From Cupriavidus gilardii (GTDB taxonomy: Bacteria; Pseudomonadota; Gammaproteobacteria; Burkholderiales; Burkholderiaceae): a stretch of DNA of 64,000 nucleotides. Each line of letters opens with the position of its first letter. Position 1 is the first letter of the stretch. The position numbers were made by a program, and so were the translations under genes. Under the pieces are notes generated by a model that worked only from the letters and a program-made list of their open reading frames with translations, did no database searches and was not told the origin of the DNA. Shown piece after piece: positions 27,268 to 33,982 of this stretch. The stretch lies in assembly GCF_013314895.1 (NCBI RefSeq), contig NZ_JABTYE010000007.1:124001-188000 (forward strand), written 5' to 3'.

Positions 27268-27780
27268 TCAGGGAAACGCCGGCACCGCCGGGTCCATCCC
27301 CGCGAAGCGGGCTTCCGGATGCGAGCTGCGCAGCAGGGCTTCAATTTCCTCGCAACGGCCGCGCGGCACATCGACGATCAGCAGGATCTTCCCGTCGGCG
27401 ATATCGGCCTCGAAGGGCTTGAGCCGGCTGTTGGGCGCCGAACTGCCGATCATGCTGGAGGCCCAGGCACCGAACACCGCGCCGAGCACGGCCAGCACGC
27501 CAACCAGGCCCCATTGCGGGGTATCGCCGACGATCGGGAACATCGCCACCACCACGCCGGCGACCACGCCCACCGCACCGCCGATCATCAAACCCATTTC
27601 GGCGGCGTGAACGATATCGGAGGTCTGGAACAGATTGGCTTCATGCAGGCCGGTCATGTCCATGCCGTCGCGGGCGACGAAGTGGATGTGCCGGTGTTCG
27701 ACGCGATTGACAAGCAGATCGTCCATGGTGCGCTTCGCGCTGACCACGTCGGGCAATAACCAATAGATGCGTTTGCGCAT
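27268..27780 (-). CDS. DUF1269-like membrane protein
   Basis: A 170-residue protein: a soluble N-terminal part (MRKRIYWLLPDVVSAKRTMD...), two glycine-rich hydrophobic helices at about 62-85 and 90-112 (GLMIGGAVGVVAGVVVAMF; 'GVLAVLGAVFGAWASS'), and a soluble C-terminus 'DGKILLIVDVPRGRCEEIE'. This layout matches small stress-related membrane proteins that monitor or modify envelope properties; the function is not established. Confidence 0.75.
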   Translation of the reverse strand: MRKRIYWLLPDVVSAKRTMDDLLVNRVEHRHIHFVARDGMDMTGLHEANLFQTSDIVHAAEMGLMIGGAVGVVAGVVVAMFPIVGDTPQWGLVGVLAVLGAVFGAWASSMIGSSAPNSRLKPFEADIADGKILLIVDVPRGRCEEIEALLRSSHPEARFAGMDPAVPAFP

Positions 27781-28036: not shown

Positions 28037-29458
28037 TCAGAACGTGATCGGCAGCCGCACGTTGACCTGCAGATCCGGCGTATCGCGCGTCAGCCCTGCA
28101 CCGACCGAGATATTGAGCGTATAGCGGTCGCTGAAGCGGTACGAATAGCCCACCAGCAACGAGCCCTGCGTGATCCGCACCGAGCCGGGCACGGTCTGCC
28201 CGTTCTGCTTGGTCGGCCAGATGATGCTTTGGTCGTAGCCGATGCTGAAGGACGCGCGCTCGTTCAGCGCCAAGCCCATGCCGAAGTTGAAGCCGAAGAT
28301 ATCGCCCGGCTCGATCTTGCCCAGCGGCTCCTTCTGGCCGTTCAGCACGGTCCGGCTGACGTTGTCGCGGCCGAAGTTGTGCAGATAGCTGAAGCTGCCG
28401 AAGAACACCGCCGGATCGGTCGGCAGCAGCCACGTGATGCCCGGCTGGATCGCATGGAACCCGGTGCCGGTCGGCATGCCCAGCGGCAGCCCGGTGCCGG
28501 TGGTATTGCCGATGCAGCGCTGCACGCAGTCGGTCACCACCTCGAACGGGCTCTTGCCGGTGTTGGACTTGTAGCGCAGCCAGCCGACGAAGAACGGCAT
28601 GCGGTCATTGCCGTAATTCAGCTGATAGCGCAGCGTCGCCTCGACATCGCCCAGCCCGCTGCCGCTCGAATTGAAGACGTTGTCCACCGCGGTGCCGGTG
28701 AAGACTTCGCGGCTGATGGTCGAGCCGGAGCTGTGCACCCAGGGGACTTTCGCTTCGATCTCCAGCCGCTTGGTAATGCCGTAGCGGAACGCGACCGAGG
28801 CGACATAAGTCGAGGTCTTGACCTCGCGCACATCGATCAGGCCGATCAGGATCGCCGGAATCACCGTGTAGCCGACCAGCGCGACGCGGTTGTTGGACGA
28901 GTATCCGTACTGGAACGCCGGCTCGACCACCAGCCGGCCGGGTGGCGTCAGCACGCCGGGCTGATCGAAGATCGGCGCGATTTCCGGCGGGCGGGTCTCG
29001 CGCTCCGGCGGCCGCCCGACCGGTTCCTGAACCTGCGCCACCGTGGTGCCGCCATTTGCGCGAGCGGGGGCCGGTGCCGGTGCTTGCGCCTGATTCACCG
29101 GCACGTTGCTCGTATTCGGCAGGCCGGTATTGCCGCTGGCCGCAGCCGGCGCCGTGGCAGCGCCGGTCGCGATATCGCCGCCGGTGACGCCCGGCCCGCG
29201 TTGTCCGCCGCGCTTGTTGGACAGCGCATCGGCGCCGACGATGCTGCGCAGCTCGCGGATCGTGGCCTCTTGCTGGGCCATCGAGCGCTTCATCGCATCG
29301 AGCACCGCCGCCTGTTCGGCGACCTCGCGTTTCAACGCCTCGAGCTTGGCGGCCGTGGGTCCGTCATCGGGCAGATTCTGCGCATGCGCCAATCCCCCCA
29401 GCAAAAGCAAGGTCGAACATCCCGCCTGCCGGATGCCCTGCATCGACCTTTTCCTCAT
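28037..29458 (-). CDS. outer-membrane beta-barrel with N-terminal coiled coil (FapF-like)
   Basis: A 473-residue protein, last gene of the fap-like locus. It has a signal peptide ending AHA|Q, then a coiled coil at about 38-75 (LEALKREVAEQAAVLDAMKR), a Pro/Ala/Gly linker (about 80-170), and a barrel with alternating strands from about 175 that ends in LPITF, the C-terminal Phe needed for outer-membrane insertion. FapF of Pseudomonas, the amyloid exporter, has the same order: signal, coiled coil, disordered linker, 12-stranded barrel, and is also the last gene after a C39 peptidase. A strong GGAGGAG ribosome site supports ATG 29458. Confidence 0.75.
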   Translation of the reverse strand: MRKRSMQGIRQAGCSTLLLLGGLAHAQNLPDDGPTAAKLEALKREVAEQAAVLDAMKRSMAQQEATIRELRSIVGADALSNKRGGQRGPGVTGGDIATGAATAPAAASGNTGLPNTSNVPVNQAQAPAPAPARANGGTTVAQVQEPVGRPPERETRPPEIAPIFDQPGVLTPPGRLVVEPAFQYGYSSNNRVALVGYTVIPAILIGLIDVREVKTSTYVASVAFRYGITKRLEIEAKVPWVHSSGSTISREVFTGTAVDNVFNSSGSGLGDVEATLRYQLNYGNDRMPFFVGWLRYKSNTGKSPFEVVTDCVQRCIGNTTGTGLPLGMPTGTGFHAIQPGITWLLPTDPAVFFGSFSYLHNFGRDNVSRTVLNGQKEPLGKIEPGDIFGFNFGMGLALNERASFSIGYDQSIIWPTKQNGQTVPGSVRITQGSLLVGYSYRFSDRYTLNISVGAGLTRDTPDLQVNVRLPITF

Positions 29459-29560
29459 GGCTCTCCTCCCCCCGGATGGCGGACTGATTCAGGAGTCCGC
29501 GACCTGCTTTGCGTTGTTGCTCTGCACCCCTGTGTGACCGGATGCGACCGTCTGCATCCA

Positions 29561-29610
29561 TTGCTTCCGCGTGCTTCCGTGTGGTTCCGTGTGGTTCCGT
29601 GTGGTCCCGT
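29561..29610. repeat. 10-bp tandem repeat (five units) between fap-like genes
   Basis: Five consecutive 10-base units (ttgcttccgc, gtgcttccgt, gtggttccgt twice, gtggtcccgt) fill the gap just after the stop of the 292-residue gene and 100 bases before the barrel gene. Copy-number change here could alter spacing or a transcript structure without touching coding sequence. Confidence 0.9.
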
Positions 29611-29622
29611 ATGCGTCTGGCT

Positions 29623-30501
29623 CTACCGCATGCTCGCCGCCCGTTGCAGGGCGCTGTTCAATGCCGCGCCGGCGACCCCCGCGCGGAACGCCTGCAAGGT
29701 GTTCACGCCCGCATCGATGGTCAACAGGCTCTGGATCGACTGGTTGTTGAGCGAGTTCTGGATCACGGTCGCCGGCGCACCGGCCAGCGTCCCCGCGTTG
29801 AAGCTGTTGCCCGGCCCGTTCTGGATCAGGTTCAGCAGGCCGTTGGTGCTGACCGAACCGGTGGCGGTGGCGATCACCGCCGGCGCCGGCATCGCGGGCG
29901 CCCCGGATGGCGATGGCGGCGATGGCGCCGCCACCGTGGCGCTGCCCGGCGTCGACGTGGCCGTGCCCGGCTGTCCTGCGCTGGCCGACGAACCGGCGCT
30001 GCCGCTGCCGGGCGTCGACGTGCCCTGCCCGGCCTGACCACCGAGCGCGTTGGCCGCGACCGAGCCCGCATTGGCCGCGGTCTGCAGCGCCGCGGCAAGC
30101 CGCCCGGCCTGCTCCGAGGTAATGCGACTGACGTCGGGAATCACCAGGCTCGTCTGTACCACCAGATTGCCGTTGATATAAACGGCGCGCTCGATGCCGA
30201 ACGACACCTGCAGGCCGGCGGTCTCGAAGCCGCCGCGCAGTTCTTCCAATCGGGCCGAGGCGACCGGTTTCCAGCCGGCCATGCCGCTGCGCGCGGCCGC
30301 GATCGCTTCGTGATGGGGATCCGCGGCCGGGTGCGACGCCAGGCCGGCGTCCAGCCCGTCTTCGCGCGGGGCCTGCGCGCTCCACGCCTGGCCGGCGCAA
30401 GCCAGCCCCGCGCCGAGCAGCACCGCTGCCGCGGCCGAACTTGCAGCGCCACGGGCGGCGCTGCGGCGCGCCGGCCGCGTAGTCATGGCTTGTCGATACA
30501 T
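29623..30501 (-). CDS. secreted amyloid-motif protein (FapE-position)
   Basis: A 292-residue exported protein. A long Ala-rich signal region ends near residue 42. The middle (about 150-205) is a low-complexity Gly/Ser/Thr/Pro stretch containing two copies of a 'GTSTPGS'-like motif. The C-terminal part has Asn/Gln-rich motifs: 'LNLIQNGPGNSFN', 'VIQNSLNNQSIQSL', 'AGVNTLQAF'. Spaced Gln/Asn motifs of this kind occur in curlin and Fap subunits. It follows the C39 peptidase by 12 bases and precedes the barrel gene, the place of fapE in Pseudomonas. Homology to FapE is inferred from position and composition, not proven. Confidence 0.65.
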   Translation of the reverse strand: MYRQAMTTRPARRSAARGAASSAAAAVLLGAGLACAGQAWSAQAPREDGLDAGLASHPAADPHHEAIAAARSGMAGWKPVASARLEELRGGFETAGLQVSFGIERAVYINGNLVVQTSLVIPDVSRITSEQAGRLAAALQTAANAGSVAANALGGQAGQGTSTPGSGSAGSSASAGQPGTATSTPGSATVAAPSPPSPSGAPAMPAPAVIATATGSVSTNGLLNLIQNGPGNSFNAGTLAGAPATVIQNSLNNQSIQSLLTIDAGVNTLQAFRAGVAGAALNSALQRAASMR

Positions 30502-30513
30502 GGTGACGGGTCC

Positions 30514-31206
30514 TTAGAAGTCTCCAGCGCCATGCTTTGGCATGACGGTAAAGAACAGGCTGTCCCGATTGACCCCCATCCAGTACGGCCCACTGGGTGC
30601 GACGCGCCAGTCCGAAGCCTGGTTGAAGCGCGCGAGATCGGTGCGGTTGTGGATCACGAACAGAAGACTACTGTCCCAGATCCGTTCGAAGTGTTCGCGA
30701 GACAACGCTCGCGTACCGAGCGCGGGATCGCCGACCAACACCCGGTTGCCGCGTACGCCCTTGACCACGACGAAATGGTGGTAGCCGTTCTCGACCACCA
30801 GCACGATCGCCGGAACCTGGGTTTCCTCGAGCTTGGACAGCGGCAGTTCGAAGCCGTCGGCGATGAAGCCGCGCGACTCGAGGAAGCGCTTCATGTCCAG
30901 CAGCGAGAAACCTTCGCGCTGGATCTTGGCGCGATCGCCGGTCAGGTACATCTGCTGGAACACTTCGGCTTCCGTGACCGGATGGCCGTACTGATAGGTA
31001 AGCAGGGTCGCCACTGCGGCCGAGCCGCAGCTGAAGTCGTACTGCTGCCGGATGGTGGTCTTGAAGCGTGCTTCCTTCAGGCTCACCGTCCGGACCTTGT
31101 ACTCGCTGCCCGCCGGTGGAATCACGACCGTGTCGGCGGCATGCGCCGGCACCGTCGCCGACGCGCAGGCGAGCGCCGCCAGCGCGGCCAGGCGTGGGAG
31201 CTTCAT
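30514..31206 (-). CDS. C39-family cysteine peptidase (FapD-like)
   Basis: A 230-residue exported peptidase with a signal peptide (MKLPRLAALAALACASATVP...). The papain-like C39 triad is visible: Cys60 in QYDFSCGSAAVATLL, His144 in GYHHFVVVKG and Asp160 in VLVGDPALG. C39 enzymes normally cut Gly-Gly leader peptides; the FapD group acts in functional amyloid export. It overlaps the preceding 163-residue gene by four bases, so the two are co-translated. The lack of any ABC transporter domain separates it from bacteriocin exporters. Confidence 0.85.
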   Translation of the reverse strand: MKLPRLAALAALACASATVPAHAADTVVIPPAGSEYKVRTVSLKEARFKTTIRQQYDFSCGSAAVATLLTYQYGHPVTEAEVFQQMYLTGDRAKIQREGFSLLDMKRFLESRGFIADGFELPLSKLEETQVPAIVLVVENGYHHFVVVKGVRGNRVLVGDPALGTRALSREHFERIWDSSLLFVIHNRTDLARFNQASDWRVAPSGPYWMGVNRDSLFFTVMPKHGAGDF

Positions 31207-31694
31207 GGTCCGAATCGCACGTTCAGAATCGTCGCGTTCTGGATCAGCGTATTGGCGCCGGTGTTCTGTATCACCGTGGGCAGGCCGCTTGCATTGGCAA
31301 ACGCCCCCTCCGAAATGGCGTTGCTCCCCGTGATGACGCGATTGGCGGTGTTGTCCGCCACCACGCCGGCCAGGCGCATGTCGTTGACCACCACTTCGGC
31401 GCCGCCGCGGATATCGGCCAGCGTGTCGGTGCCGACCGCCTTGCCGAAACCGGCCAGCACGGTGCCGGCCCGCGCTTGCGGTGGCGTGTGGGCCGAAGCC
31501 TCGACCGTGGCCTGCGGTATCGCGGCGACGGTGGTGTCCTTGTTGTCGGCCTCCGGCGTGGCGACGCCGGTCGGCATCGCGGCCGTCGGGCTTGCCGCTT
31601 CAGGCGCGGCGGACGGCTCTGCCGCGGCGTGCAGGCCGGGCCAGAGCAGGATTGCTGTCGTCAAAGCGCCGACAGCGGTGCGGACCGCTCGCAT
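31203..31694 (-). CDS. small secreted amyloid-motif protein
   Basis: A 163-residue exported protein with a signal peptide (about 25 residues), an Ala/Pro/Thr-rich linker (about 28-80), and a compact C-terminal region ending in 'VIQNTGANTLIQNATILNV', a Gln/Asn-rich repeat pair of curlin/Fap style. It could be a nucleator or a chaperone in the place of FapA/FapB. It shares its ATGA junction with the C39 peptidase gene. It starts 165 bases after the stop of the Gly-rich gene. Confidence 0.65.
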   Translation of the reverse strand: MRAVRTAVGALTTAILLWPGLHAAAEPSAAPEAASPTAAMPTGVATPEADNKDTTVAAIPQATVEASAHTPPQARAGTVLAGFGKAVGTDTLADIRGGAEVVVNDMRLAGVVADNTANRVITGSNAISEGAFANASGLPTVIQNTGANTLIQNATILNVRFGP

Positions 31695-31859
31695 GATGGT
31701 GCCTCCTCATGTCCCGTCTCCGCGTGGCGGACGACCGGACGTTCCGTCGAACGGGCGTCCCGACGCGAGGCCGGGACGCCCACTCCTGCAGAGCAACACC
31801 GAGCAAGGCGCGATGCCGGCGCGCCATCCTCGCGCCGGCATGCGCGCCCGCGCAGCGTC

Positions 31860-33251
31860 TTACCTGCCTACAGCCAGGTTGGCCTGGACCGTGACGGCTT
31901 GTTGCACCAGCGAGCCGAGGCCGCTGTTCTGATTGGCGATCATGATGCCGGCCGCCGACTGCCCGACGCTGCTCATCGCGTTGGACATGTTGAACGTGCC
32001 CGCATCGGCCAGCGCCACGCCACCAGCACCGCCGGCGCCGCCGGTTGCGCCGTTGCCGACGCCACCGGTACCGCCCGCTCCCGCGCCACCGGCACCGCCG
32101 GCACCGCTGGCCGCGCCAGCCGCGCCGACTGCGCCAGCGCCGGCCGCCGCATTGCCATTGCTGGCCGTGGTGGTGGCGCCGCCGTTGGTGGCATTGCCGC
32201 CGGTACCGCCGTTACCCGCGACGCTGGTCTGCGCGCCGCCCGCACCGCCGGTGCCCGTGCCGGCACCACCCGAGGCGGTCGCCGCGCCGCCCGTGCCCGC
32301 GCCGCCCGCACCGCCGGTGCCGGTACCCGTGCCGCCAGTGGCCGCCACCGCGCCGGTGGTGCCTGCGCCGCCGGCACCGCCCGAGGCGCCGGACGTGCCG
32401 CCCGCCGTGGTTACCGCGCCGCCAGTACCGGCGCCGCCCGCACCAGCGGTGGTCGCCGTGGTGTCAGCGCCAGGACCGCGTGCGCCGCCGCCGCTCGAGC
32501 TGCTGCTGCCGCCCAGGCCGGCGCTCGCGCCGAGCGAGCCGCCCGATGCCGCACCAGCTCCGCCGCCATCGCCGCCGCCGGCCAGGCTGCCGCCGGTGCC
32601 ATTGCCGCCGGCACCGGTGCCATTGGCGCCGCGCGCTCCCACGCCAACGCTGGCCGCCAATGCACCGCCACCGGTGCCGACACCGTTGGCACCACGGCCG
32701 GCAGTGCCGTTGGCGTTACCGCCGTAGCCGCCACGGCCCGCGGTCGCGCTGCCGTTATTGGCATCGCCCGCGGTCGCATCGCCGATCGTTGCCAGGCCGC
32801 CGGCACCGCCGTTACCGCCGGCGCCGCCATTGCCGCTGTTGCCGCCATTGCCGCCGGTACCGCCCATGGCATTGCCGCCGGTGCCCGCGCCACCGCGACC
32901 GCCGGCGCCGCCGCTGGCATTACCCAGCTGACGGGCGACGTTGCCGATATGGCTGACCGTCAGGCCGCTGACCGTGCCGTTCAGGCGCGTCGTGGCGACC
33001 GCGCGGCTCGTGTTGAAGGCATTGGAGAAGTTGGCGGTCGAGGTGGAGCCGTTGTTTGCCGCAGTCGTGCCCAGGCCCTCGGCCCATGCGCGTCCGCGGT
33101 TCTCCGAATTGGTTTTGGTCGTGGTGGTGGTGTCGTTGTCGGTGACATTGACATTCACCGCCACGGCATCGTCGGTTGCGGTCTGTGCCAAGGCGTGCCC
33201 TGTCACCCCGAAAGCCAGGGCGACGGCGGACGCGAGTAAGGTCTTTTTCAT
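31860..33251 (-). CDS. large Gly/Ala-rich secreted repeat protein (putative amyloid or matrix subunit)
   Basis: A 463-residue protein and the first gene of the fap-like locus. A clear signal peptide (MKKTLLASAVALAFGVTGHALA) is followed by an Asn/Thr-rich stretch 'DDAVAVNVNVTDNDTTTTT' and about 300 residues (roughly 110-415) of GGxGG/GTGG/GAGG repeats like PGRS proteins or silk. A conserved-looking tail carries 'MSNAMSSVGQSAAGIM' and 'NSGLGSLVQQAVTV'. It is nearly free of charged and aromatic residues in the repeats. Similar genes are often labelled adhesin or haem utilisation protein without evidence. The ATG at 33251 has a ggagg/ggag ribosome region; the longer frame upstream is non-coding in style. 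Confidence 0.75.
   Translation of the reverse strand: MKKTLLASAVALAFGVTGHALAQTATDDAVAVNVNVTDNDTTTTTKTNSENRGRAWAEGLGTTAANNGSTSTANFSNAFNTSRAVATTRLNGTVSGLTVSHIGNVARQLGNASGGAGGRGGAGTGGNAMGGTGGNGGNSGNGGAGGNGGAGGLATIGDATAGDANNGSATAGRGGYGGNANGTAGRGANGVGTGGGALAASVGVGARGANGTGAGGNGTGGSLAGGGDGGGAGAASGGSLGASAGLGGSSSSSGGGARGPGADTTATTAGAGGAGTGGAVTTAGGTSGASGGAGGAGTTGAVAATGGTGTGTGGAGGAGTGGAATASGGAGTGTGGAGGAQTSVAGNGGTGGNATNGGATTTASNGNAAAGAGAVGAAGAASGAGGAGGAGAGGTGGVGNGATGGAGGAGGVALADAGTFNMSNAMSSVGQSAAGIMIANQNSGLGSLVQQAVTVQANLAVGR
32030..32930. repeat. GC-rich imperfect repeats encoding Gly-rich blocks
   Basis: On the plus strand this stretch is made of gccgccggcaccgcc-type units with 9- to 36-base periodicity. 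Because it is so GC-biased, several other frames stay open across it; only the minus frame with signal peptide and tail is credible. Confidence 0.75.
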
Positions 33252-33982
33252 ACATAGCTCCCAGGAGGATGTTCTCTGCGACTCAGCCCGGGCACAGCCT
33301 TCGTCAGACGGAAAACGAAGCGGTAGCCGGGTCATGGTCCGGCATTGGCCAAACCGAAGCGCCCTGCGCATATTCAGTGCCAGCGCGCCATGAAGGCGCC
33401 TCTTCCCCTTGTAAAACAAGGCCAAAATAGCCCTGTTGCGGTGCAAAATCCCGCTTTCGGTGCGACACTGGGTGTGCGAATACTGTGAACCGGAACAGAC
33501 ATGTCACATTGGTGTGACAGCGCACGGAAAGCATCGCGGCGCCGTGATCCCGGCCAGCAGAAAAAAATATGTTTATCGCCGGATAGTTAAGTAGTGACGC
33601 CGATAAAACGGGAGTGGCAGTCCAGGCGTTACAGAATTGAAACGCGCAATTCGGCAGGGTGCGAGCGGTGTTTTTTTAAGCACGTCCTGCATTGGGGGGA
33701 TGTTTCGGATGGACCGCATCGCCGATCATAGGCGGCCATCGCTGCGGGGCGCTTGATGCGCCGCCTCCGAGCACGAAAACCCAGGCAAGAAAACGTCCGC
33801 CGAAATGGATCGGAATCGCGTCGACATTGCGCCGACGTTGCTCCGACAAGGCCCGGCCCACGCTTGCCAAACCAATGTGCGAATTCACACGGCCGGACGC
33901 AGTGCATTGTTACTATGTTCCATGTCTGATTTAAAGTACATTAAACTTATTGCCGACCTGTCGTCGACTCGCAAGGGAAACC
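33252..33982. promoter_or_regulatory. long upstream region of the fap-like locus
   Basis: The longest gene-free stretch in the window (about 730 bases), between the divergent Gly-rich gene and the GntR gene. It is more AT-rich than its surroundings, with short A and T runs (around 33562 and 33672), and contains a perfect dyad at 33502-33519. Short frames here (for instance 33629-33907, minus strand) lack ribosome sites and normal codon use, so I call no gene. It probably holds the promoter and long leader of the amyloid-like operon. Confidence 0.5.
33502..33519. promoter_or_regulatory. perfect dyad TGTCACA-N4-TGTGACA
   Basis: An 18-base element with perfect 7-bp arms and TTGG in the centre, about 250 bases before the Gly-rich gene. 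It is a good candidate binding site for a dimeric regulator. It is not the CRP consensus (TGTGA-N6-TCACA), since the arms are inverted relative to it. Confidence 0.5.

Follow-up and report, generated by a model that had tools for sequence, protein, structure and literature searches.

A Fap-related locus of Cupriavidus gilardii combining FapD- and FapF-like proteins with a glycine-rich exported protein

Introduction

The Fap functional amyloid system, known from Pseudomonas and other Proteobacteria and encoded by fapABCDEF, has been described as evolutionarily 'fixed' in gene order, FapB and FapC nearly always having three repeats (2025 review, PMC12822426). Secretion needs the cysteine of FapD (PMC5557850). 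What FapD acts on was described as unclear in 2017 (PMC5557850) and as yet to be established in 2018 (PMC6173800); in the 2025 review FapD is thought to process FapE and FapF (PMC12822426). Pairs of FapD and FapF homologues outside Fap are already known. Dueholm (2013) noted that the profiles of FapD and FapF reached into larger families, with 1,594 and 217 hits compared with 70 and 69 curated (PMC3792158), and Rouse (2018) reported that homologues of fapD and fapF also lie together in five additional phyla (PMC6173800). A five-gene locus of Cupriavidus gilardii that is probably one of these pairs is described here. It occupies positions 28037-33251 of a 64,000-nucleotide (nt) stretch of contig NZ_JABTYE010000007.1, referred to as the window, and its sequence points to a sister system of Fap in which relatives exchange the middle of the first protein.

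Gene organisation and export machinery

All five open reading frames (ORFs) lie on the minus strand, as do all features located below. The first gene (31860..33251) encodes a 463-residue Gly/Ala-rich exported protein whose homologues have conserved ends, the second (31203..31694) a small 163-residue Asn/Gln protein with a double-glycine leader and one FapB-like repeat, and the third (30514..31206) a 230-residue FapD-like C39 peptidase with a signal peptide. The fourth (29623..30501) encodes a 292-residue FapE-like protein with a double-glycine leader and Asn/Gln motifs, and the fifth (28037..29458) a 473-residue FapF-like outer-membrane barrel with an N-terminal coiled coil. Five exported-protein genes in this order and at these positions had been delineated in the original prediction, a reading of the sequence made without database searches. 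The start of the peptidase gene overlaps the stop of the second gene by 4 nt; gaps of 165 nt and 164 nt separate the first gene from the second and the fourth from the fifth. In the 5.5 Mb host genome, of the genus Cupriavidus, the first protein, the peptidase and the barrel were each found once at the thresholds applied. The closest named relative of the peptidase is that of C. cauae (97% identity), followed by one from a Cupriavidus metagenome-assembled genome (96%).

The peptidase matched the FapD model NF058616 with an expectation value (E) of 1.2e-40 and PF03412 at E 8.9e-25, and Cys60, His144 and Asp160, picked out beforehand as its catalytic residues, align with those of the C39 protease 6mpz. 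The barrel matched the NCBIfam FapF model (E 2.8e-40) and, over residues 160-472, the FapF crystal sequence 5o67 (phmmer, E 1.7e-27). Its AlphaFold2 (AF2) model, with a mean predicted local distance difference test score (pLDDT) of 69.7, consists of a helix and a C-terminal barrel, and found the FapF structure 5o65 (Foldseek E 1.5e-19) ahead of the next fold family, the COG4313 channel 4rl8 (E 1.4e-11). The helix is predicted as a 39-residue coiled coil, residues 35-73 (29240..29356). The reading of the last three genes as fapD-fapE-fapF was thereby borne out in homology to FapD and FapF and in order.

Scores against the two models, 139 bits for FapD and 138 bits for FapF, are below the NCBI equivalog cut-offs of 330 and 700. 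A canonical locus (L134) also fell below them, with 282 bits for FapD and 439 bits for FapF, so these cut-offs do not decide membership of Fap; that for FapD was passed by 0 of 369 genomes of an even sample of the class. The Fil surface system of Acinetobacter likewise combines a C39 peptidase with a related barrel, and FilC and FilF, described as pilus adhesion factors, have been reported from biofilm (PMC8792954). Matches to FilB (E 4.5e-37) and FilC (E 1.8e-12) stayed under the cut-offs of those models (127.9 of 475 bits and 47.3 of 630 bits). Both proteins scored better against FapD and FapF, a comparison made with the FilB and FilC models, and a Fil-type system is accordingly considered very improbable.

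Relatives and phylogenetic position

Close relatives were defined as the best 80 of 535 peptidase relatives from a contig scan, and span Cupriavidus, Paraburkholderia, Burkholderia, Pararobbsia, Polaromonas, Oxalobacteraceae and Lysobacteraceae. Among them, L034, L044 and L047 come from Cupriavidus necator. The contig was long enough on both sides for 64 of the 80 loci. Among these uncut loci, the second and fourth genes each stood beside the peptidase gene in 64/64 and a recognised first gene was present in 62/64, with the barrel gene downstream on the same strand in 52/64, convergent in 10/64 and elsewhere in 2/64. The fap link had been made to depend on a barrel of the FapF family and on a gene order kept in relatives; the barrel is a FapF homologue by sequence, profile and fold, and the five-gene set recurs. 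A relative of the barrel was found in 58 of 60 Cupriavidus genomes, including the host (a set that overlaps in species with the 80 loci), and the two genomes without one are 54% and 97% complete. Within the order, the second-protein profile matched at least 31 of 399 genomes, and within the phylum at least 14 of 398, the host included in both; these are lower bounds because scoring was limited to nine candidates per genome at most.

In an even sample of 369 genomes of the class, the FapD model at E<=1e-20 found matches in 43, with 50 places listed. Classification was carried out on 40 stretches, made up of 35 of the listed places and five second copies from Cupriavidus; of the other places listed, one is the window itself and 14 were left out. 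Twenty stretches (L133-L152) are of canonical type and matched the peptidase and barrel profiles only, the profiles of the first, second and fourth proteins matching 0 of the 20. Each of the 20 encodes a protein with two to eight FapC-type repeats; with curated models, L134 matched FapB, FapC, FapD, FapE and FapF, while L148 matched FapC through its FapC-type protein. Fourteen stretches (L153-L166), the wider relatives of the window, matched the fourth-protein profile in 14/14 cases and the second-protein profile in 12/14 (not L153 or L161). The remaining six (L167-L172) form a third type. In L167 (G268:C258) the peptidase relative is broken by a TGA codon.

Gln54, Cys60, His144 and Asp160 of the peptidase are invariant in alignment counts of 80/80 close relatives, 14/14 wider relatives and 20/20 canonical FapD. 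A CxxxC motif of the barrel (Cys311/Cys315; 28514..28528), counted across relatives, is present in 77/78 close relatives, 1/14 wider relatives, 0/20 canonical FapF and 0/5 barrels of the third type. It marks the close, Gly-rich relatives, although L158 has a Gly-rich first protein and no CxxxC.

Trees were built from 68 peptidases and 66 barrels, comprising every third close relative, all of the 40 stretches with an ORF found, and the window. Loci of the window's type form one clade, with support of 98/97 in the peptidase tree and 100/99 in the barrel tree. Canonical barrels form another (99/98), canonical peptidases are less firmly grouped (86/37), and the third type is scattered without a single clade. 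Both systems occur in one genome (G071), 89 kb apart. A second barrel, at 28-31% identity, is present in 6 of the 60 Cupriavidus genomes, and the five that were fetched proved to be canonical Fap. They are L148-L152, from G021, G023, G001, G039 and G056; in G021, G056 and G001 the two systems lie 76-79 kb apart on the same contig. No FapC match was found in the window's genome, and 4 of 10 genomes searched had one, all chosen as positive controls.

The locus had been taken for a fap locus with a different first gene in place of FapB/FapC. On sequence evidence it is instead a sister system of Fap, since its FapD and FapF homologues form separate clades and coexist with canonical fap in some genomes; the homology and the D-E-F order stand. 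The same observations bear on the idea of a canonical Fap operon that has diverged, its FapC having lost repeats and gained a Gly-rich linker. The D-E-F order and the FapE- and FapB-like features of the small proteins would suit that idea, and FapC linkers are known to vary (PMC3792158). With separate clades in both trees, canonical Fap coexisting in G071 and in Cupriavidus genomes, and none of the 20 canonical loci matched by the profiles of the first, second and fourth proteins, it is regarded as improbable.

Double-glycine leaders

Both small proteins carry a leader, recognised by RGG conservation and a hydrophobic pattern, that resembles those cut by C39 proteases. In the second protein it ends in R96-G97-G98, with a predicted cut after Gly98 (31401..31445), and in the fourth in R89-G90-G91, with a predicted cut after Gly91 (30229..30273). 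Positions are numbered backwards from the glycine pair. RGG is present in 77/80 second proteins, with hydrophobic residues at -12, -7 and -4 in 97, 99 and 79%. The leader of the fourth protein was found in 81/81, with hydrophobic residues at -15, -12, -7 and -4 in 85, 95, 100 and 86% compared with 0-7% at -11 to -8, -6 and -5 and a background of 25%. It is also present, as RGG, in 13/13 fourth proteins of wider relatives scored below 1e-5 (L153 left out). The pattern agrees with the published -4/-7/-12 leader groove of the C39 protease LahT (PMC6363468), and with Gly-Gly before the predicted cut both proteins have the hallmarks of a C39 substrate.

A hydrophobic residue, two residues of any kind, and a second hydrophobic residue followed by Arg-Gly and then Gly or Ala occurred near the N-terminus of 60/79 second proteins and 56/80 fourth proteins. 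The same motif was found in 60 of 6,730 other ORFs of these loci, and in none of the first-gene ORFs (0/50 and 0/74), peptidases (0/80) or barrels (0/78).

Canonical FapE proteins, picked solely by their place between FapD and FapF, show a comparable pattern. L146 and L147, where the barrel is far away, and L150, which has no fitting ORF, were left out of the count. An Arg-Gly column is present in 17/17, followed by Arg or Lys, with hydrophobic residues at -12, -7 and -4 in 100, 100 and 88% compared with 0-12% at -11 to -8, -6 and -5 (background 28%, n=17); position -8 is Glu in 14/17. The 2017 study of FapF held that canonical C39 sites are lacking in Fap proteins, and its mass spectrometry recovered no peptides from the first ~70 residues of FapE and found FapA-D unprocessed (PMC5557850). 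A double-glycine leader in FapE was not shown anywhere in the literature searched, the scope of which was set short of subscription papers and supplements. From the shared pattern, the leaders of the second and fourth proteins and of FapE are likely to be FapD-type cut sites.

Double-glycine leaders beside a C39 peptidase are also what a locus exporting bacteriocin-like peptides, or ribosomally synthesised and post-translationally modified peptides, would present. Here signal peptides are present on the peptidase and its putative substrates, the barrel that accompanies them is FapF-like, and none of the five genes encodes an ABC transporter, which makes such a locus scarcely credible. In the third-type loci L169 and L171, exported neighbours have double-glycine-like N-terminal motifs ending AG, GG or GQ, and the leader code may therefore be general.

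Repeats of the small proteins

The second protein contains a Fap-type repeat at about residues 125-159 (31218..31322), recognised by profile alignment (hhalign) with full-length FapB, and also aligned with FapE (E 4.4e-6). The fourth protein aligned with the N-domain of FapE over 34 columns (E 3.6e-6, probability 87.5%). When the FapB profile was run over 7,384 ORFs, the top 25 ranks were all second-gene ORFs (E 0.0014-0.38), which come from related loci and are not 25 independent events. Curated models of FapA, FapB, FapC and FapE found no match among the five proteins (FapB and FapC at E<=1), and profile searches of the Protein Data Bank with the second and fourth proteins returned nothing at E<=10. 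Stray single matches only were obtained with Pfam on 34 second-gene proteins and with NCBIfam on 32 fourth-gene proteins, the latter including one to FapA at E 0.036. Pfam curlin repeats were absent from the first, second and fourth proteins and from the 34 second-gene proteins. One second-gene relative (G481:C1:5234402-5234839) is broken by a TAG codon.

The glycine-rich first protein

The first protein comprises a signal peptide, an N-domain, a low-complexity middle and a strongly conserved C-terminal repeat; Pfam and NCBIfam gave no match. Its GGX-rich middle, residues 111-418 (31998..32921), is delimited by composition, with 43% Gly and 23% Ala and with Gly at i+3 at 0.236 compared with 0.186 expected. 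Among 66 first-gene ORFs of close relatives the Gly content of the middle ranged from 14 to 46% (median 41%). The C-terminal Asn/Gln repeat, about residues 426-459 (31875..31976), is defined by its conservation and matches the repeat of the second protein (hhalign E 2.7e-10). An unusual, large subunit had rightly been noted in place of the repeat-bearing FapB/FapC, though it ends in one Fap-type repeat and is not repeat-free. In four Paraburkholderia loci (L062, L067, L068 and L072) two first genes lie in tandem.

Two comparisons were rejected. A score of 24.6 between the C-terminus and the Fap repeat, compared with at most 14.0 in 40 column shuffles, was discarded as biased because the windows had been picked by patterns common to both sides. 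An alignment of the N-domain with FapC (E 1.7e-5) covered the signal peptide only.

Wider relatives with the same machinery carry first proteins of other kinds. Those of L157, L160 and L162-L165 matched the profile of the N-domain (E 5e-3 to 4e-11, the signal peptide accounting for part of the match) and have middles of 1-8% Gly and 20-31% Asn, rich in Asn, Ser and Asp, while L154 and L155 have three or four Fap-type repeats in tandem. Relatives thus keep the machinery and the repeat and ends while exchanging the middle of the first protein, which may be GGX-rich, Asn/Ser/Asp-rich or composed of several repeats; the Gly-rich form is thus one variant among others.

The long middle of varying composition, the single repeat per chain in most relatives and an AF2 model of the first protein that gave no confident structure (built with 23 relatives; mean pLDDT 34.2) could all be accommodated by a non-amyloid coat. 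The same machinery would then export the first protein, its repeat serving as an export or docking tag only and its Gly-rich or Asn-rich domain as a hydrated adhesive or gel, with no cross-beta fibre. Against this stand the repeat as the best conserved part of the first protein, its three or four tandem copies in L154 and L155 and the matching repeat in the second protein; a coat of this kind is considered rather unlikely.

Expression elements and neighbouring features

A stem-loop is predicted between the first and second genes (31795..31859), with z -4.19 on 83 nt and -2.3 on 93 nt. At z<-2, a stem-loop follows the first gene in 61/74 relatives compared with 5/80 after the fourth gene and 22/78 after the barrel gene; one follows fapC in 12/20 canonical loci and the first-gene candidate in 12/14 wider relatives. 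It has no T-tract and therefore looks more like a stability or partial-stop element. Its position after the first gene, as after many fapC genes, suggests that this gene may encode the major product.

A palindrome, TGTCACA-N4-TGTGACA, about 250 nt upstream of the first gene (33502..33519) is a candidate operator. Its strict form was counted upstream of 21 of 50 first genes examined and a relaxed form, expected 0.013 times per 500 bp, upstream of 22 of 50; the holders are Cupriavidus and two records named otherwise (L041 and L049). Most Cupriavidus relatives examined keep the palindrome with a varying spacer. A sigma-70 scan yielded 0 sites. The region between the fourth and fifth genes contains a short tandem repeat, about GGAACCACAC, at 29555-29615. 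A membrane-protein ORF with a weak DUF1269 match (E 0.026) lies directly downstream on the same strand (27268-27780), outside the five-gene set.

Proposed function

The reading judged the most likely, and held to be somewhat probable, is that the locus is a Fap sister system building a matrix fibre outside the cell, probably of amyloid-like nature, whose low-complexity domain is exchangeable. Products with the N-terminal signal peptides seen in the sequence would exit the cytoplasm through Sec. Once in the periplasm, the second and fourth proteins would lose their N-terminal propeptides to the FapD-like peptidase, which would cut at their double-glycine leaders, and by analogy with FapF the coiled-coil barrel would export the first, second and fourth proteins unfolded. 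Outside the cell, the Asn/Gln repeat of the second protein may nucleate a fibre on which the C-terminal repeat of the first protein stacks, the Gly-rich middle projecting as a hydrated coat of low complexity. Starting or anchoring the fibre might fall to the FapE-like fourth protein. The first gene would make the major product, with the predicted stem-loop after it as a possible contributor.

Several results weigh against this proposal, among them the low confidence of the first-protein model. One repeat in each chain might not suffice to form a fibre, and the first-protein C-terminus alone gave no significant match to Fap repeats (E 0.18; 0.0026). The alignment of the second protein with full-length FapB (E 1.3e-4) reached a probability of only 54%, which is moderate, and the best single match of the FapB profile to a second-gene ORF is the E 0.0014 given above. 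Concerning the leaders, FapE has Arg or Lys where C39 leaders have Gly or Ala. Second proteins of wider relatives are mostly without RGG (present in 1 of 10 listed; L166 also has it), and FapA of L134 carries a similar motif though FapA-D were unprocessed by mass spectrometry (PMC5557850). Residues 153-167 of the barrel, before the first strand, have a pLDDT below 50 and form no confident plug in the AF2 model. When stem-loops after fapC were counted, three of the five Cupriavidus fap loci included were above z -1.1.

A broader proposal, for which the case is evenly balanced, is that Fap is one branch of wider two-part export modules consisting of a periplasmic double-glycine protease and a gated FapF barrel. 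A second branch, similar to Fap in frequency among the loci classified in the even class sample, would have an amyloid core reduced to one repeat, on which interchangeable low-complexity domains (GGX, Asn/Ser/Asp or several repeats) are displayed. The bacteriocin-protease leader code would be used by FapD on FapE and the proteins corresponding to it, but not on the main subunit. Because the code is common to FapE and both small proteins, it specifies exact, testable cut sites for FapD. Screens demanding FapB/C repeats would probably miss a sister branch with the same kind of exporter and very different cargo, and an exporter family accepting Gly-rich, Asn-rich and repeat cargo would be of interest for designed protein matrices.

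Comparison with known systems

PE_PGRS proteins of mycobacteria have a GGX-rich composition and are secreted by a route other than the one considered here. The first protein resembles them in composition only, with no Pfam match (and so no PE domain), no NCBIfam match and no confident fold, and the earlier description of it as PGRS-like was not upheld beyond composition. The peptidase is like the C39 proteases LahT, PCAT1 and ComA in its catalytic residues and in the -4/-7/-12 leader code, and unlike them in being a stand-alone protein with a signal peptide and no fused ABC transporter.

With fapD-fapF pairs outside Fap the locus shares co-located FapD and FapF homologues without FapB/C. It differs from those published in that cargo, leaders and clade are described here, whereas their cargo is not given in the accessible text (PMC6173800, PMC3792158). 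The Gly-rich locus was not found in the literature searched, within the scope given above, in keeping with the original suggestion that the combination may be undescribed.

The closest likeness is to Fap itself, with which the locus shares a FapD-like C39 peptidase, a FapE-like N-domain, a FapF-like coiled-coil barrel, the order D-E-F, Asn/Gln repeats of Fap type and, in many loci, a stem-loop after the main subunit gene. Unlike Fap, it has one repeat each in the first and second proteins where Fap has three, a Gly-rich first protein, true RGG leaders, and peptidases and barrels that fall into separate clades.

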